The translations under genes were made by a program, and so were the position numbers. From Steroidobacter gossypii (lineage in GTDB: Bacteria > Pseudomonadota > Gammaproteobacteria > Steroidobacterales > Steroidobacteraceae), in assembly GCF_016801985.1 (NCBI RefSeq), contig NZ_JAEVLS010000001.1, forward strand, positions 62,001-126,000: 64,000 nucleotides of DNA, given 5' to 3'. Below the pieces are notes generated by a model. That model searched no databases. It worked only from the letters and a program-made list of their open reading frames with translations, and was not told the DNA's origin. This document shows, piece by piece, positions 39,561-44,352 of the stretch. How positions within the stretch are numbered: position 1 is the stretch's first letter; every line of letters starts with the position of its first letter.

Positions 39561-41147
39561 TCACCCGGCGGTGAGTTCGTCGAGAACGGTTCGGATATTG
39601 CTGCCGACGGAGATTTGAGGATTGGAGAAGCCGTCGTCTTTCTTGCCGTCGATCTCGCGTTGTTTGATGACGGGGACGGCGGCTTTGAACGCCTCTTCGA
39701 ACGATAATGTCTTGCGCAACTGCTCGTCGAACACGGCGCGGCCGAAAAAGGTGAGCTCGGAATTCGAACCGCAGCCGTAGGAAGTGTGATCCTTGTCGGC
39801 CGCGGTCATGACCAGCGTATCGTCGTTTCGCAGCGGCTCGATCCAGCCGCCGGAGTAGCACGCCGAAACGGCGATAACGCGATGGCGGATGCCCAGCTCA
39901 TCGAGCATCGAGCGCAGCTCGTCCGCCGTCAGATCTTCGACGTGCAGCGGCCAATTCTCCGCGGCGAGCTTGAAATCGGCGCCGCCATGGGAGGTGAGAT
40001 AGATGACCAGCACGTCGCGTTCGGGGTTCATGGCCTTGGCCAAAGCCTGAAGGCTGCGCTCCAGGTTGCGAGTCGTCGCCCACGGAAACTCATTCGCGGT
40101 GGTCGCATTGTTCACAAGGCGCACGACGCGCCCCCAAGCGCCGAAGCGCTCTTCCAGCACCTGCTTCACCATGGCGCTTTCGCGCAGGAACACGTCCTCG
40201 GCGTACGGCGCATAGATCAAACCGAACGTTTGTCTTTTGTCGCCCGTGGACGGAACGATGGCTTGCAACGAGCCTTGCAGCAACGTTTGCTGAGTCTCGA
40301 ACACCTCCTGGCTGAGTGTGAGCGATGCGTACTCTTCGTCTTCGTACGACTCGAGCGGTTGCCATGCCTGGGTGGAGATCTGCCAACTGGCGGCGATCTG
40401 CACGATGATCGCGTACACCAGCAGGCTCGCGGCGACGAGCATCGAGCGCGTGACTGCTCGCGATATTCGCCACATCGCTATGCCGAGCCAGAACCAGAGC
40501 GCCCCGTAGAACACCCAGGCCAACGTGTCGCCCTGCTCCCACCATCCGGGCTGATAGGCGCGCACGGCGATTCCGAGCAGAGTGATCGGGACCGAGGCGA
40601 TCGTGAAGAGCAGATACCAAGCGGCCACGGGTGAGGCGTGGGCGGCTTTCTCACGTGTCCATTCAAGCACCGACCACAGCCCGAAAATCAGCAGCGCGCT
40701 GGGCGCCCAGCCGAACAGAAAGGAGCGGACATCGAACCACGCCGGGCCGTCCACTTCGTATCTTGAAGCAGCTGTCACAATCGCGGTCGACCCAGCCACC
40801 AGCAGCAACATCGGCCACGCGCCGGGGCCCTCGGGGAGTTGCAGTACAGGTCGCAGCGTGCTGGCTCTGAATCCCTGCCGGACCCATCCTCGCCAGTTGG
40901 CGCGTCGCGCAGTCTGTGCAGATCGCCTACCCTGTTCAGAAGGCGCAGCCGGTTCGGATGGCGCAGCCCGTTCGGAAGGCGCAGCCGGTTCGGATGGCGC
41001 AGCCTGTTCGGAAGGCGCAGCCGGTTCGGATGGCGCGGCCTGTTCGGAAGGCGCAGCCGGTTCGGGTTGCGCGGCCGGTTCGGATCGCGCATCCGCTTGC
41101 GACGCTCCGGGGCTCACATCTGCGGTGCTCGAAATTTGTCGTTCCAT
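39561..41147 (-). CDS. Membrane-anchored C13 (legumain-like) peptidase with hexapeptide-repeat N-terminus
   Basis: 528 residues in three parts: an Ala/Pro/Ser/Glu-rich N-terminus (~15-75) of repeated AAPSE[PQR] hexapeptides; five or six membrane helices (~95-265); and a C-terminal caspase-like domain (~290-528) with the C13 dyad in VIYLTSHGGADF (His) and VIAVSACYSGGW (Cys), plus DLTADELRSMLDEL and TAADKDHTSYGCG. Bacterial C13 proteins are poorly characterised. The N-terminal repeat would be cytoplasmic or periplasmic depending on helix number, so topology is not settled. Confidence 0.9.
   Translation of the reverse strand: MERQISSTADVSPGASQADARSEPAAQPEPAAPSEQAAPSEPAAPSEQAAPSEPAAPSERAAPSEPAAPSEQGRRSAQTARRANWRGWVRQGFRASTLRPVLQLPEGPGAWPMLLLVAGSTAIVTAASRYEVDGPAWFDVRSFLFGWAPSALLIFGLWSVLEWTREKAAHASPVAAWYLLFTIASVPITLLGIAVRAYQPGWWEQGDTLAWVFYGALWFWLGIAMWRISRAVTRSMLVAASLLVYAIIVQIAASWQISTQAWQPLESYEDEEYASLTLSQEVFETQQTLLQGSLQAIVPSTGDKRQTFGLIYAPYAEDVFLRESAMVKQVLEERFGAWGRVVRLVNNATTANEFPWATTRNLERSLQALAKAMNPERDVLVIYLTSHGGADFKLAAENWPLHVEDLTADELRSMLDELGIRHRVIAVSACYSGGWIEPLRNDDTLVMTAADKDHTSYGCGSNSELTFFGRAVFDEQLRKTLSFEEAFKAAVPVIKQREIDGKKDDGFSNPQISVGSNIRTVLDELTAG
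40932..41090 (-). repeat. 18-bp tandem repeat array in the C13 peptidase gene
   Basis: About nine copies of an 18-bp unit alternate between GGTTCGGATGGCGCAGCC and TGTTCGGAAGGCGCAGCC on the plus strand, giving a higher-order 36-bp period. They encode the AAPSEP/AAPSEQ hexapeptides. Such an array can change copy number by slippage without breaking the frame. Confidence 0.9.
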
Positions 41148-42267: not shown

Positions 42268-43617
42268 TTATCGTTTTTGTCGCGCCCGATTTAGCAAAGC
42301 CTCGACCGCCCATGCGTGATCGTAGGACTCTCCGTCCCATCGAGTCGCCGCCGTTTTACGGTCGATGTGCAAGCCCTGCTCTTCATGCTGCTCGACCAGC
42401 TGATACCAATCTCCGAGCGGCTGGGTGTGATCGGGGGCCGTGCTGTCGAAAGACTTGCCAGTCGGCGTCACGAAACGAATCGCGCCGTCGTCTAACACCA
42501 AGACCACGACGTTTCCTTCATGCACTTGTCGGTGGTGATGTTTGCAAAGGCTGACGAGATTGGAGAGCTTCGTCTCGCCACCATGCGCCCAATGCTGAAT
42601 GTGATGGCCGTCCAGGAATCGCGTGTTGGTGCAACCCGGGAAACGACAGCAGCCGCGATCTCGCGACTTGAGCGCGCGGTGTAGCGCGGGCGGTATACTT
42701 CGCGTCTTTCTTCCCACATTGAGCGGCTCGCCGTCCTCGTTTTCTACAATAGGAACGACGCTGCAGTCACAAGACAACCGCCGGGCCGTCTCCGCAGCCA
42801 TACTCGGCCCGTGTTCAAAGTTGCATCGCCCGGGAGCGCTGTCTCGCAACGTCTCCGCGTCCACATGCACCACGATCTGATGTCGATCGCCTCCCTTCAT
42901 CGCGGCCGGCCCATGCGCCAGATAACTCTCCGCCAAGATCGCGAGAGCATCTGCCTTCCCGGCCGTCGGCTGAGGACGCAATTTAACAGATGACGTTTCC
43001 GCAGAAACGTCCGCTGAGATTTCTTCCATGGCGCCTTCGATCGCCTTGATAAACATCTGGCCCGCTTCGGCCGGCAACCGCGCCTTGATCACCAGCATCC
43101 CGTCCTGATCGTGAAACCAGGTGAGCTTCCGATCCGCCTGTTGCTGCGCCTCTCGTCCCAGCTCCTCCGCCTCCTTGCATCGACGGAAGTCGCGCACGAT
43201 GCGCTCCACGTGCACCGCCGTGCCATGCAGCGCGTACATCAGTAAGGTCTCTTCCGTATTCGGGCATGCCACGCGCGTCAACGCGCGCACCTTCGCATAG
43301 CTCAACTCTCCGCGCTCCATCGCCGCGGCAATCTTCGGCAGATTGGCTAGCGCATGTGCCGTGCGCACCTTCTCGCGCGCCGCGCCCATGTCGATACCGC
43401 ACTTCCAATTGAGCCAATGCGCGCAGGACGCCGTGGCGCCATCTCCGCCCCACCCTTTTTGGCGGTCCCATTCCGCGATGAGCGTCAGGAAGCGATAGTT
43501 GGCCGCGTTCAAATGCCCCGCGAGCTTGACGATCTCATCGCCGAGCGCTTCGAGTGCCTGCCGTTTGGCAAGCCGCGTCTGGTAATCGTCGTACTGGCCG
43601 ACTTCTTCCTGGATCAT
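42268..43617 (-). CDS. HNH endonuclease with DUF222 domain
   Basis: 449 residues. The N-terminal DUF222 region (~15-300, helical, e.g. HWLNWKCGIDMGAAREKVRTA) is followed by a C-terminal HNH/McrA-like nuclease with zinc Cys residues in CRFPGCTNTRFLDGHHI (HH of the active site), NLVSLCKHHHRQVHEG. These 13E12-type proteins are scattered as multicopy accessory genes; their biology is not settled. It lies 88 bases after a small gene, and both appear to sit under the LexA-overlapped promoter at 44320-44348, so DNA-damage control is likely. Confidence 0.93.
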   Translation of the reverse strand: MIQEEVGQYDDYQTRLAKRQALEALGDEIVKLAGHLNAANYRFLTLIAEWDRQKGWGGDGATASCAHWLNWKCGIDMGAAREKVRTAHALANLPKIAAAMERGELSYAKVRALTRVACPNTEETLLMYALHGTAVHVERIVRDFRRCKEAEELGREAQQQADRKLTWFHDQDGMLVIKARLPAEAGQMFIKAIEGAMEEISADVSAETSSVKLRPQPTAGKADALAILAESYLAHGPAAMKGGDRHQIVVHVDAETLRDSAPGRCNFEHGPSMAAETARRLSCDCSVVPIVENEDGEPLNVGRKTRSIPPALHRALKSRDRGCCRFPGCTNTRFLDGHHIQHWAHGGETKLSNLVSLCKHHHRQVHEGNVVVLVLDDGAIRFVTPTGKSFDSTAPDHTQPLGDWYQLVEQHEEQGLHIDRKTAATRWDGESYDHAWAVEALLNRARQKR

Positions 43618-43705: not shown

Positions 43706-44146
43706 TCAAACCATATAAACAGGCGTCGGCTCTCTCACCATGTACGGCCCGTGCCCTGCCGCATCCGGCTCGCCCTCGCTAGGCTCTCCGCCATCGCCCT
43801 TGCCCGCGGCTTGGATCAACGGCCGCAGCTTCTTCAAATCCAACTCCACGACCGCCTCGTTAACCCATTTCTCCAGCGCCTTCGCCACCTCCGCGTGCAA
43901 CTCCGCGTCTTCGTCATCCGCGTACAGCAACACATCCGACAGACAGTGCAGCGTCGCGCGTATCTGCATCAGCAGCGCCCCCACGTTCTCGATGGCCTCC
44001 TCTAATGTTCGCGGTGGCTCTGCCGGCGGCGGCGGCGTAAGTACGCTGCGCGCGGTGCGCGCCGCGCGGGTGGATGGCTCCGCGTGCGCCCTGGTTGGAC
44101 TGCGTCGTGAACGGCGCGGTTTGGAAGTATCATCGTGCTTAGCCAT
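43706..44146 (-). CDS. Small hypothetical protein upstream of the HNH endonuclease
   Basis: 146 residues from ATG 44146 (AGGA upstream). A very basic Arg/Ser/Thr/Pro tail (MAKHDDTSKPRRSRRSPTRA) leads to an amphipathic helical core (TLEEAIENVGALLMQIRATL, AEVAKALEKWVNEAVVELDL) and an acidic end. No known domain was recognised. The basic N-terminus suggests nucleic-acid or partner binding. It is the first gene of the SOS-type transcript, followed by the HNH nuclease, so a partner or modulator of that nuclease is a fair hypothesis. Confidence 0.7.
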   Translation of the reverse strand: MAKHDDTSKPRRSRRSPTRAHAEPSTRAARTARSVLTPPPPAEPPRTLEEAIENVGALLMQIRATLHCLSDVLLYADDEDAELHAEVAKALEKWVNEAVVELDLKKLRPLIQAAGKGDGGEPSEGEPDAAGHGPYMVREPTPVYMV

Positions 44147-44319
44147 GTCATCTTCCTCTTTAAGGTGGCTGGTTAGGCGTTCGGCGGTGTTCGTGCACCG
44201 TCGAGCGCCGCTTTCATGCAATGCACATCTCTCTCTGCGAATCTGTCTGCGGGGCCGCTCGAAAAGTGAGGAAAGGTTCCGAGCGGAGGTCGGTGGTGCT
44301 CGGAAGCGAGCACGGTGAC

Positions 44320-44348
44320 ATCTTAGCGCCAGTGACTGTATATAACAA
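44320..44348 (-). promoter_or_regulatory. Sigma-70 promoter for the HNH operon
   Basis: On the minus strand, TTGTTA (44348-44343) and TAAGAT (44325-44320) are separated by exactly 17 bases, a good housekeeping promoter reading toward the small gene at 44146. The -35 hexamer lies inside the LexA box. Confidence 0.6.
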
Positions 44349-44352
44349 CAGT
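44335..44352. promoter_or_regulatory. LexA (SOS) box
   Basis: ACTGTATATAACAACAGT matches the gammaproteobacterial SOS box (CTGT-N8-ACAG with AT-rich centre and flanking A/T). It covers the -35 of the minus-strand promoter at 44320-44348, the classic repressing position. A plus-strand target is less likely because the next plus gene begins almost 400 bases away. Confidence 0.7.

Follow-up and report, generated by a model that had tools for sequence, protein, structure and literature searches.

A DUF222-HNH nuclease operon of Steroidobacter gossypii, probably restrained by LexA and by a SymR-like antisense RNA

A two-gene operon of Steroidobacter gossypii is likely to be induced by the SOS response and to be held shut by two locks, LexA and an antisense RNA resembling SymR. 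The operon pairs a gene for a small protein with one for a DUF222-HNH endonuclease, and lies in the window, as the whole stretch of 64,000 nucleotides analysed is called here. Its features, in window coordinates, are as follows.

42268-43617, minus strand: DUF222-HNH endonuclease, 449 amino acids (Pfam DUF222, E 8.5e-27; HNH, 1.4e-6; both above cut-off)
43706-44146, minus strand: small protein, 146 amino acids, with a basic disordered N-terminus and then a helical hairpin (low-confidence model; multi-copy family)
44128-44133, plus strand: -10 element TATCAT for the antisense RNA, lying within the coding sequence of the small protein (hexamer position shared by relatives)
44141-44214, plus strand: SymR-like antisense RNA spanning the small gene's ribosome-binding site and start codon (Rfam symR, covariation, wobbles)
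44176-44189 paired with 44196-44209, plus strand: stem of the antisense RNA (compensatory pairs)
44147-44313, minus strand: predicted mRNA leader of about 167 nt (3' half conserved in paralogues)
44296-44313, minus strand: hairpin GTGCTCG-GAAG-CGAGCAC at the predicted RNA 5' end (fold prediction; this locus only)
44320-44325, minus strand: predicted -10 element TAAGAT (sequence and paralogue alignment; not kept in paralogues)
44343-44348, minus strand: predicted -35 element TTGTTA, within the LexA box (sequence)
44336-44351, palindrome without strand: LexA (SOS) box CTGT-N8-ACAG, here CTGTATATAACAACAG (sequence match; same type at the host recA)

In the mechanism proposed, LexA on its box would block the operon promoter, and a SymR-like RNA, transcribed constitutively from its own promoter within the small gene, would cover that gene's ribosome-binding site and start codon, so that leaky transcripts would go untranslated. 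Upon DNA damage, RecA would trigger the self-cleavage of LexA. Once the induced mRNA had outrun the antisense RNA, the nuclease would be made together with the small helical protein. Three parts of this scheme are inferred: the block on translation, the joint expression of the nuclease, and toxicity.

By analogy, the locus is one that works like symE/symR of E. coli, here linked to an HNH nuclease. Its role is most likely that of a damage-triggered module that processes or degrades DNA and that, like symE/symR, would be dangerous when its expression is mistimed. The double lock, the patchy distribution and the decayed copies described below favour a pair of proteins that do harm when mis-expressed.

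LexA control of the operon and its relatives

The sequence-only reading of this DNA had placed a near-ideal SOS box over the -35 element of a minus-strand promoter that reads into the small protein and the nuclease. The box is indeed there, TTGTTA (44348-44343) falls inside it, and both open reading frames lie where that reading put them. The promoter itself fared less well. TTGTTA, a spacer of 17 bases and TAAGAT are all present on the minus strand, but the pair agrees with the consensus at only 8 of 12 bases, and a promoter scan did not pick it up; such a weak sense promoter counts against the two-lock proposal. The hairpin said to begin the RNA is likewise found and predicted to fold. However, the two closest paralogues of the leader keep the box and lack both the -10 element and the hairpin, and the hairpin was rejected as a functional element because it is absent from them. 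The leader stem was also considered as an integron attC site, and rejected because the end boxes, in our reading of the alignments, are wrongly ordered.

The host LexA (L016) is canonical. It aligns to E. coli LexA with an E value of 1.7e-80, and the core of the recognition helix, SxNAAEEHL, is identical in the two. A box of the type seen in the window, CTGTGCAAATATACAG, also precedes the host recA, 96 bp ahead of the RecA match. Because the helix is as in E. coli and recA has this box, a host LexA of a different consensus, the objection that the sequence-only reading had itself raised, is not borne out. A second, longer LexA-like protein (L017, G000:C28:267827-268021) has a diverged recognition helix, RNRQGIDQHL.

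A box of this kind can, of course, arise by chance. One CTGT-N8-ACAG is expected per 64 kb (mean 0.65 for the window), and the genome of 7.1 Mb (G000, in which the window is C11:62001-126000) holds 59 such sites against 43 for the reversed pattern. For this reason, the significance of the box must come from its position and its conservation. To assess these, DUF222-HNH genes were collected from the Steroidobacteraceae and from named genomes of the Lysobacterales, the Woeseiaceae and other Gammaproteobacteria. Boxes were scored over 20 bases against TACTGTATATATATACAGTA, with a site defined as a score of at least 20 from -150 to +60 of the start.

Among genes dereplicated at 90% identity, which remain related by descent, 31 of 35 gammaproteobacterial DUF222-HNH genes have a LexA box at the start, compared with 3 of 647 control windows. 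At a score of 21, shuffled palindromes hit a mean of 0.11 loci (maximum 6), and the real motif 29. A later class-wide draw found the box at 6 of 8 DUF222-HNH genes, including all five paralogues of one genome. The four exceptions include the window and G011, where the small gene comes first and the box stands upstream of it; the DUF222-HNH genes of L094 and of an Oleispira MAG have no box between -150 and +60 of the start. The window box thus matches the motif of the host LexA and is conserved at orthologues. Since its position is conserved across the class and in paralogues, a chance match is hardly credible. Control of the operon by the host LexA is, on these sequence comparisons (recA box, recognition helix, class-wide conservation), strongly supported.

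Outside the Gammaproteobacteria the picture is mixed. Actinobacterial copies carry an actinobacterial SOS box (for example, TCGAACGCATGTTCGA) in 13 of 60 cases against 6 of 120 controls, at a threshold of at least 11 of 12 matches, and TCGAACGTATGTTCGA stands at the start of a DUF222-HNH gene in a record labelled Actinomycetota. No LexA box was recognised by eye at members from the Myxococcota and Rokubacteria.

The antisense RNA

Two things had escaped the sequence-only reading: the SymR-like RNA over the start of the first gene, and the fact that the small protein belongs to a widespread family, often preceded by a LexA box. The Rfam symR model matches the plus strand at 44141-44212 with 39.2 bits (E 3.4e-5), below the gathering score of 61, and this shortfall is a point against two locks. 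The model matches in seven loci of the family, always over the start of the small gene, with a best score of 59.3 bits against the same gathering score. In an alignment of eleven RNAs, 99.4% of cells are paired, and 5 of 18 pairs are altered on both sides, beyond what shuffles and slid controls give. A model of this RNA built here, R1, finds 44 full-length matches in 11 of the 14 genomes of the genus.

The conserved stem might instead act in the sense mRNA, as an attenuator or a protein site. The Rfam R1162 model does match the sense strand, and hairpins can be read from either strand. The wobbles, however, are valid on the antisense strand only. There, G-U cells stand to A/C cells as 27:0, and among sequences beyond the training set as 92:7. 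Read on the sense strand, such G-U pairs would be mismatches. Further, a -10 hexamer begins at position -13 or -12 relative to the start of the antisense RNA in 39 of 42 relatives, where control windows give a mean of 0.27; as in symE/symR, this promoter lies within a protein gene. A stem acting in the sense mRNA is therefore very improbable. These comparisons support both the existence of the antisense RNA and the strand assigned to it, and a SymR-like antisense RNA at the window locus itself is probable.

A true SymE gene, as recognised by the SymE_toxin profile (E 1.1e-12), is present elsewhere in the genus, in a sister species, and one R1 match lies opposite it. This, in turn, ties the RNA family to SymR. 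Further R1 copies cover the start codons of different small open reading frames, some with an XRE-type regulator downstream. At L336, L337, L340, L345 and others, the frames are very short or unclear, and an XRE-type helix-turn-helix gene follows about 300-550 bp downstream. Another SymR-like RNA (G000:C22:1544504-1544578) has a LexA box 161 bp upstream and covers a short open reading frame that overlaps a helix-turn-helix-like frame.

The two locks do not always travel together, which counts against the two-lock proposal. A LexA box lies within 450 bp at only 9 of 42 SymR-like loci. Conversely, DUF222-HNH genes that have the box and lack the small gene have no SymR-like RNA, which means that the nuclease does not need the RNA lock.

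We lean, by a modest preference, towards a broader reading, in which SymR is independent of SymE. Within the genus, it would be a reusable RNA lock placed at the start codons of several small proteins that are unrelated to each other, with up to nine copies per genome. Here, it would be combined with a LexA box to restrain a small protein and a DUF222-HNH nuclease, giving an SOS-induced, RNA-throttled nuclease system of an undescribed kind. If SymR-type RNAs do pair with proteins unrelated to SymE, then one half of a classic type I toxin-antitoxin system, its RNA, can act as a transferable module for control.

The two proteins

Searches of Pfam, NCBIfam and PHROGs gave no match for the small protein. 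Among the domains not matched is SymE_toxin, another point against the two-lock proposal. The AlphaFold model from the single sequence (pLDDT 66) suggests, with low confidence, a helical hairpin behind a basic disordered N-terminus; like a further model (pLDDT 61), it was too poor for fold searches. The family is multi-copy, occurring in 11 of the 14 genomes of the genus and in 3 of the 25 genera of the Steroidobacteraceae. At 13 of 30 small-protein loci, a LexA box is found 13-214 bp upstream, in favour of the SOS reading. Solo small genes in a gene context conserved in four species (L048, L270, L271, L272) have a near-perfect box and no SymR-like RNA, which again speaks against a general double lock. 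The full order of box, SymR-like RNA, small gene and HNH gene recurs in G011. In G001, an ORF6N-like protein (identified by eye; L269:5612-6313) takes the place of the HNH gene downstream of a boxed small gene with a SymR-like RNA.

The nuclease contains both DUF222 and HNH domains with their catalytic residues. Because the residues of the HNH motif and of the zinc knuckle vary little or not at all among aligned relatives, the enzyme is probably active. Between the two genes lies a gap of 88 bp without a terminator-like site, so co-transcription of the small gene and the nuclease gene is likely.

Comparison with known systems

TisB is a small membrane toxin, and tisB/istR has no nuclease partner. 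In placing an SOS-induced protein under the control of an antisense RNA, tisB/istR of E. coli (PMC9040746) resembles the working proposed for the window locus.

The closest comparison is with symE/symR, a type I toxin-antitoxin system of E. coli. There, the antisense RNA SymR is 77 nt long and is transcribed from a promoter within symE, and LexA, SymR and Lon act additively on symE (PMC1891008). The window locus is alike in its upstream LexA box, its antisense RNA opposite the 5' end, and its antisense promoter inside the open reading frame. The symR covariance model matches it, and the same type of RNA faces a true SymE in the sister species. A SymR-type RNA thus covers the ribosome-binding site and start codon, with an Rfam score below gathering, but the protein has no SymE (AbrB-fold) domain; it belongs to a helical small-protein family and is followed by a DUF222-HNH nuclease. 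Because the protein fails this test, the locus is not filed as symE/symR.

The second comparison is with the 13E12 (REP13E12) proteins of M. tuberculosis, which are also DUF222-HNH proteins. Several of them are LexA-regulated (PMC5005354, PMC4181829), and five HNH endonucleases of that species are induced by mitomycin C in a RecA-dependent manner (PMC8151990). The mycobacterial LexA box is TCGAAC-N4-GTTCGA, unlike the CTGT-N8-ACAG found here, and no small partner gene or SymR-like RNA is described there (PMC5005354, PMC4181829, PMC8151990). The sequence-only reading had held that nucleases of this family have no agreed role. This holds, and matters because these proteins are very numerous in actinobacteria; their induction by damage, however, was already known from 13E12 (PMC5005354, PMC4181829, PMC8151990). 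What appears to be new is the conservation of the box in the Gammaproteobacteria. A literature search that reached a minority of subscription journals found no earlier report of SOS control of DUF222-HNH genes in that class. The near-universal gammaproteobacterial LexA control parallels the mycobacterial one despite the different LexA motif. LexA control in both groups would make acting during DNA damage a core property of the DUF222-HNH family, and its function directly testable.

A further parallel comes from M. smegmatis, where the HNH nuclease MSMEG_1275 cuts the DNA of its own host and favours cell death during stress (PMC9416677). It is reported to be under an ArsR-family regulator, and its membership in DUF222 is not stated.

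Alternative roles for the nuclease

The nuclease may be a plain SOS enzyme that aids repair or recombination. LexA control would then be the whole story, with the antisense RNA merely trimming an unrelated small protein. This is a serious competitor, although we consider it rather less than an even prospect. Elsewhere, the box immediately precedes DUF222-HNH genes that lack a SymR-like RNA, and in M. tuberculosis a role in a repair system has been proposed for the 13E12 proteins (PMC4181829). One would not, however, expect a housekeeping repair enzyme to occur so patchily (in 25 of 217 genomes of the family and 5 of 369 of the class), to reach 31 copies in an actinobacterial genome, or to leave decayed copies as this one does here.

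These high copy numbers are also what a selfish or mobile element would produce. Here, the DUF222-HNH protein would be the nuclease of a proliferating repeat, as in REP13E12, and SOS would be its cue to spread. Multiple copies and fragments in G000, G004, G007 and G010 fit this view, and 13E12 proteins have been described with mobile-element features (PMC5005354). Against it, the DNA homology of the window copy to its paralogues spans the genes and leader only and not the flanks, the 64-kb window contains no tRNA, and a box before almost every copy implies retained regulation, not random insertion. A mobile element is accordingly an unlikely explanation, and a transposing unit with common ends was rejected because homology stops at the genes and the leader. 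We keep to the damage-triggered, doubly locked operon as the preferred reading.

The prophage-like function raised by the sequence-only reading was not borne out. No relatives were found in viral contigs, and phage records gave two unannotated faecal phage entries, the best at 36% identity; a prophage origin was rejected for want of viral relatives. A known anti-phage defence system was likewise rejected, as PADLOC models gave no match.

Several minor observations belong beside these. Broken or partial DUF222-HNH copies occur in the same genome (G000:C11:878981-880166, C31:207769, C32:155, C4:4139). A Group I intron match (L031:1020-1265, that is, G000:C22:1283541-1283786; 33.9 bits, E 6e-5, below gathering) lies just upstream of a second DUF222-HNH copy, beside a tRNA-like 3' end. 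Within the window, a tandem PSEPAAPSEQAA-type repeat stands close to the N-terminus of a protein with a Peptidase C13 domain, encoded at 39561-41147 on the minus strand.
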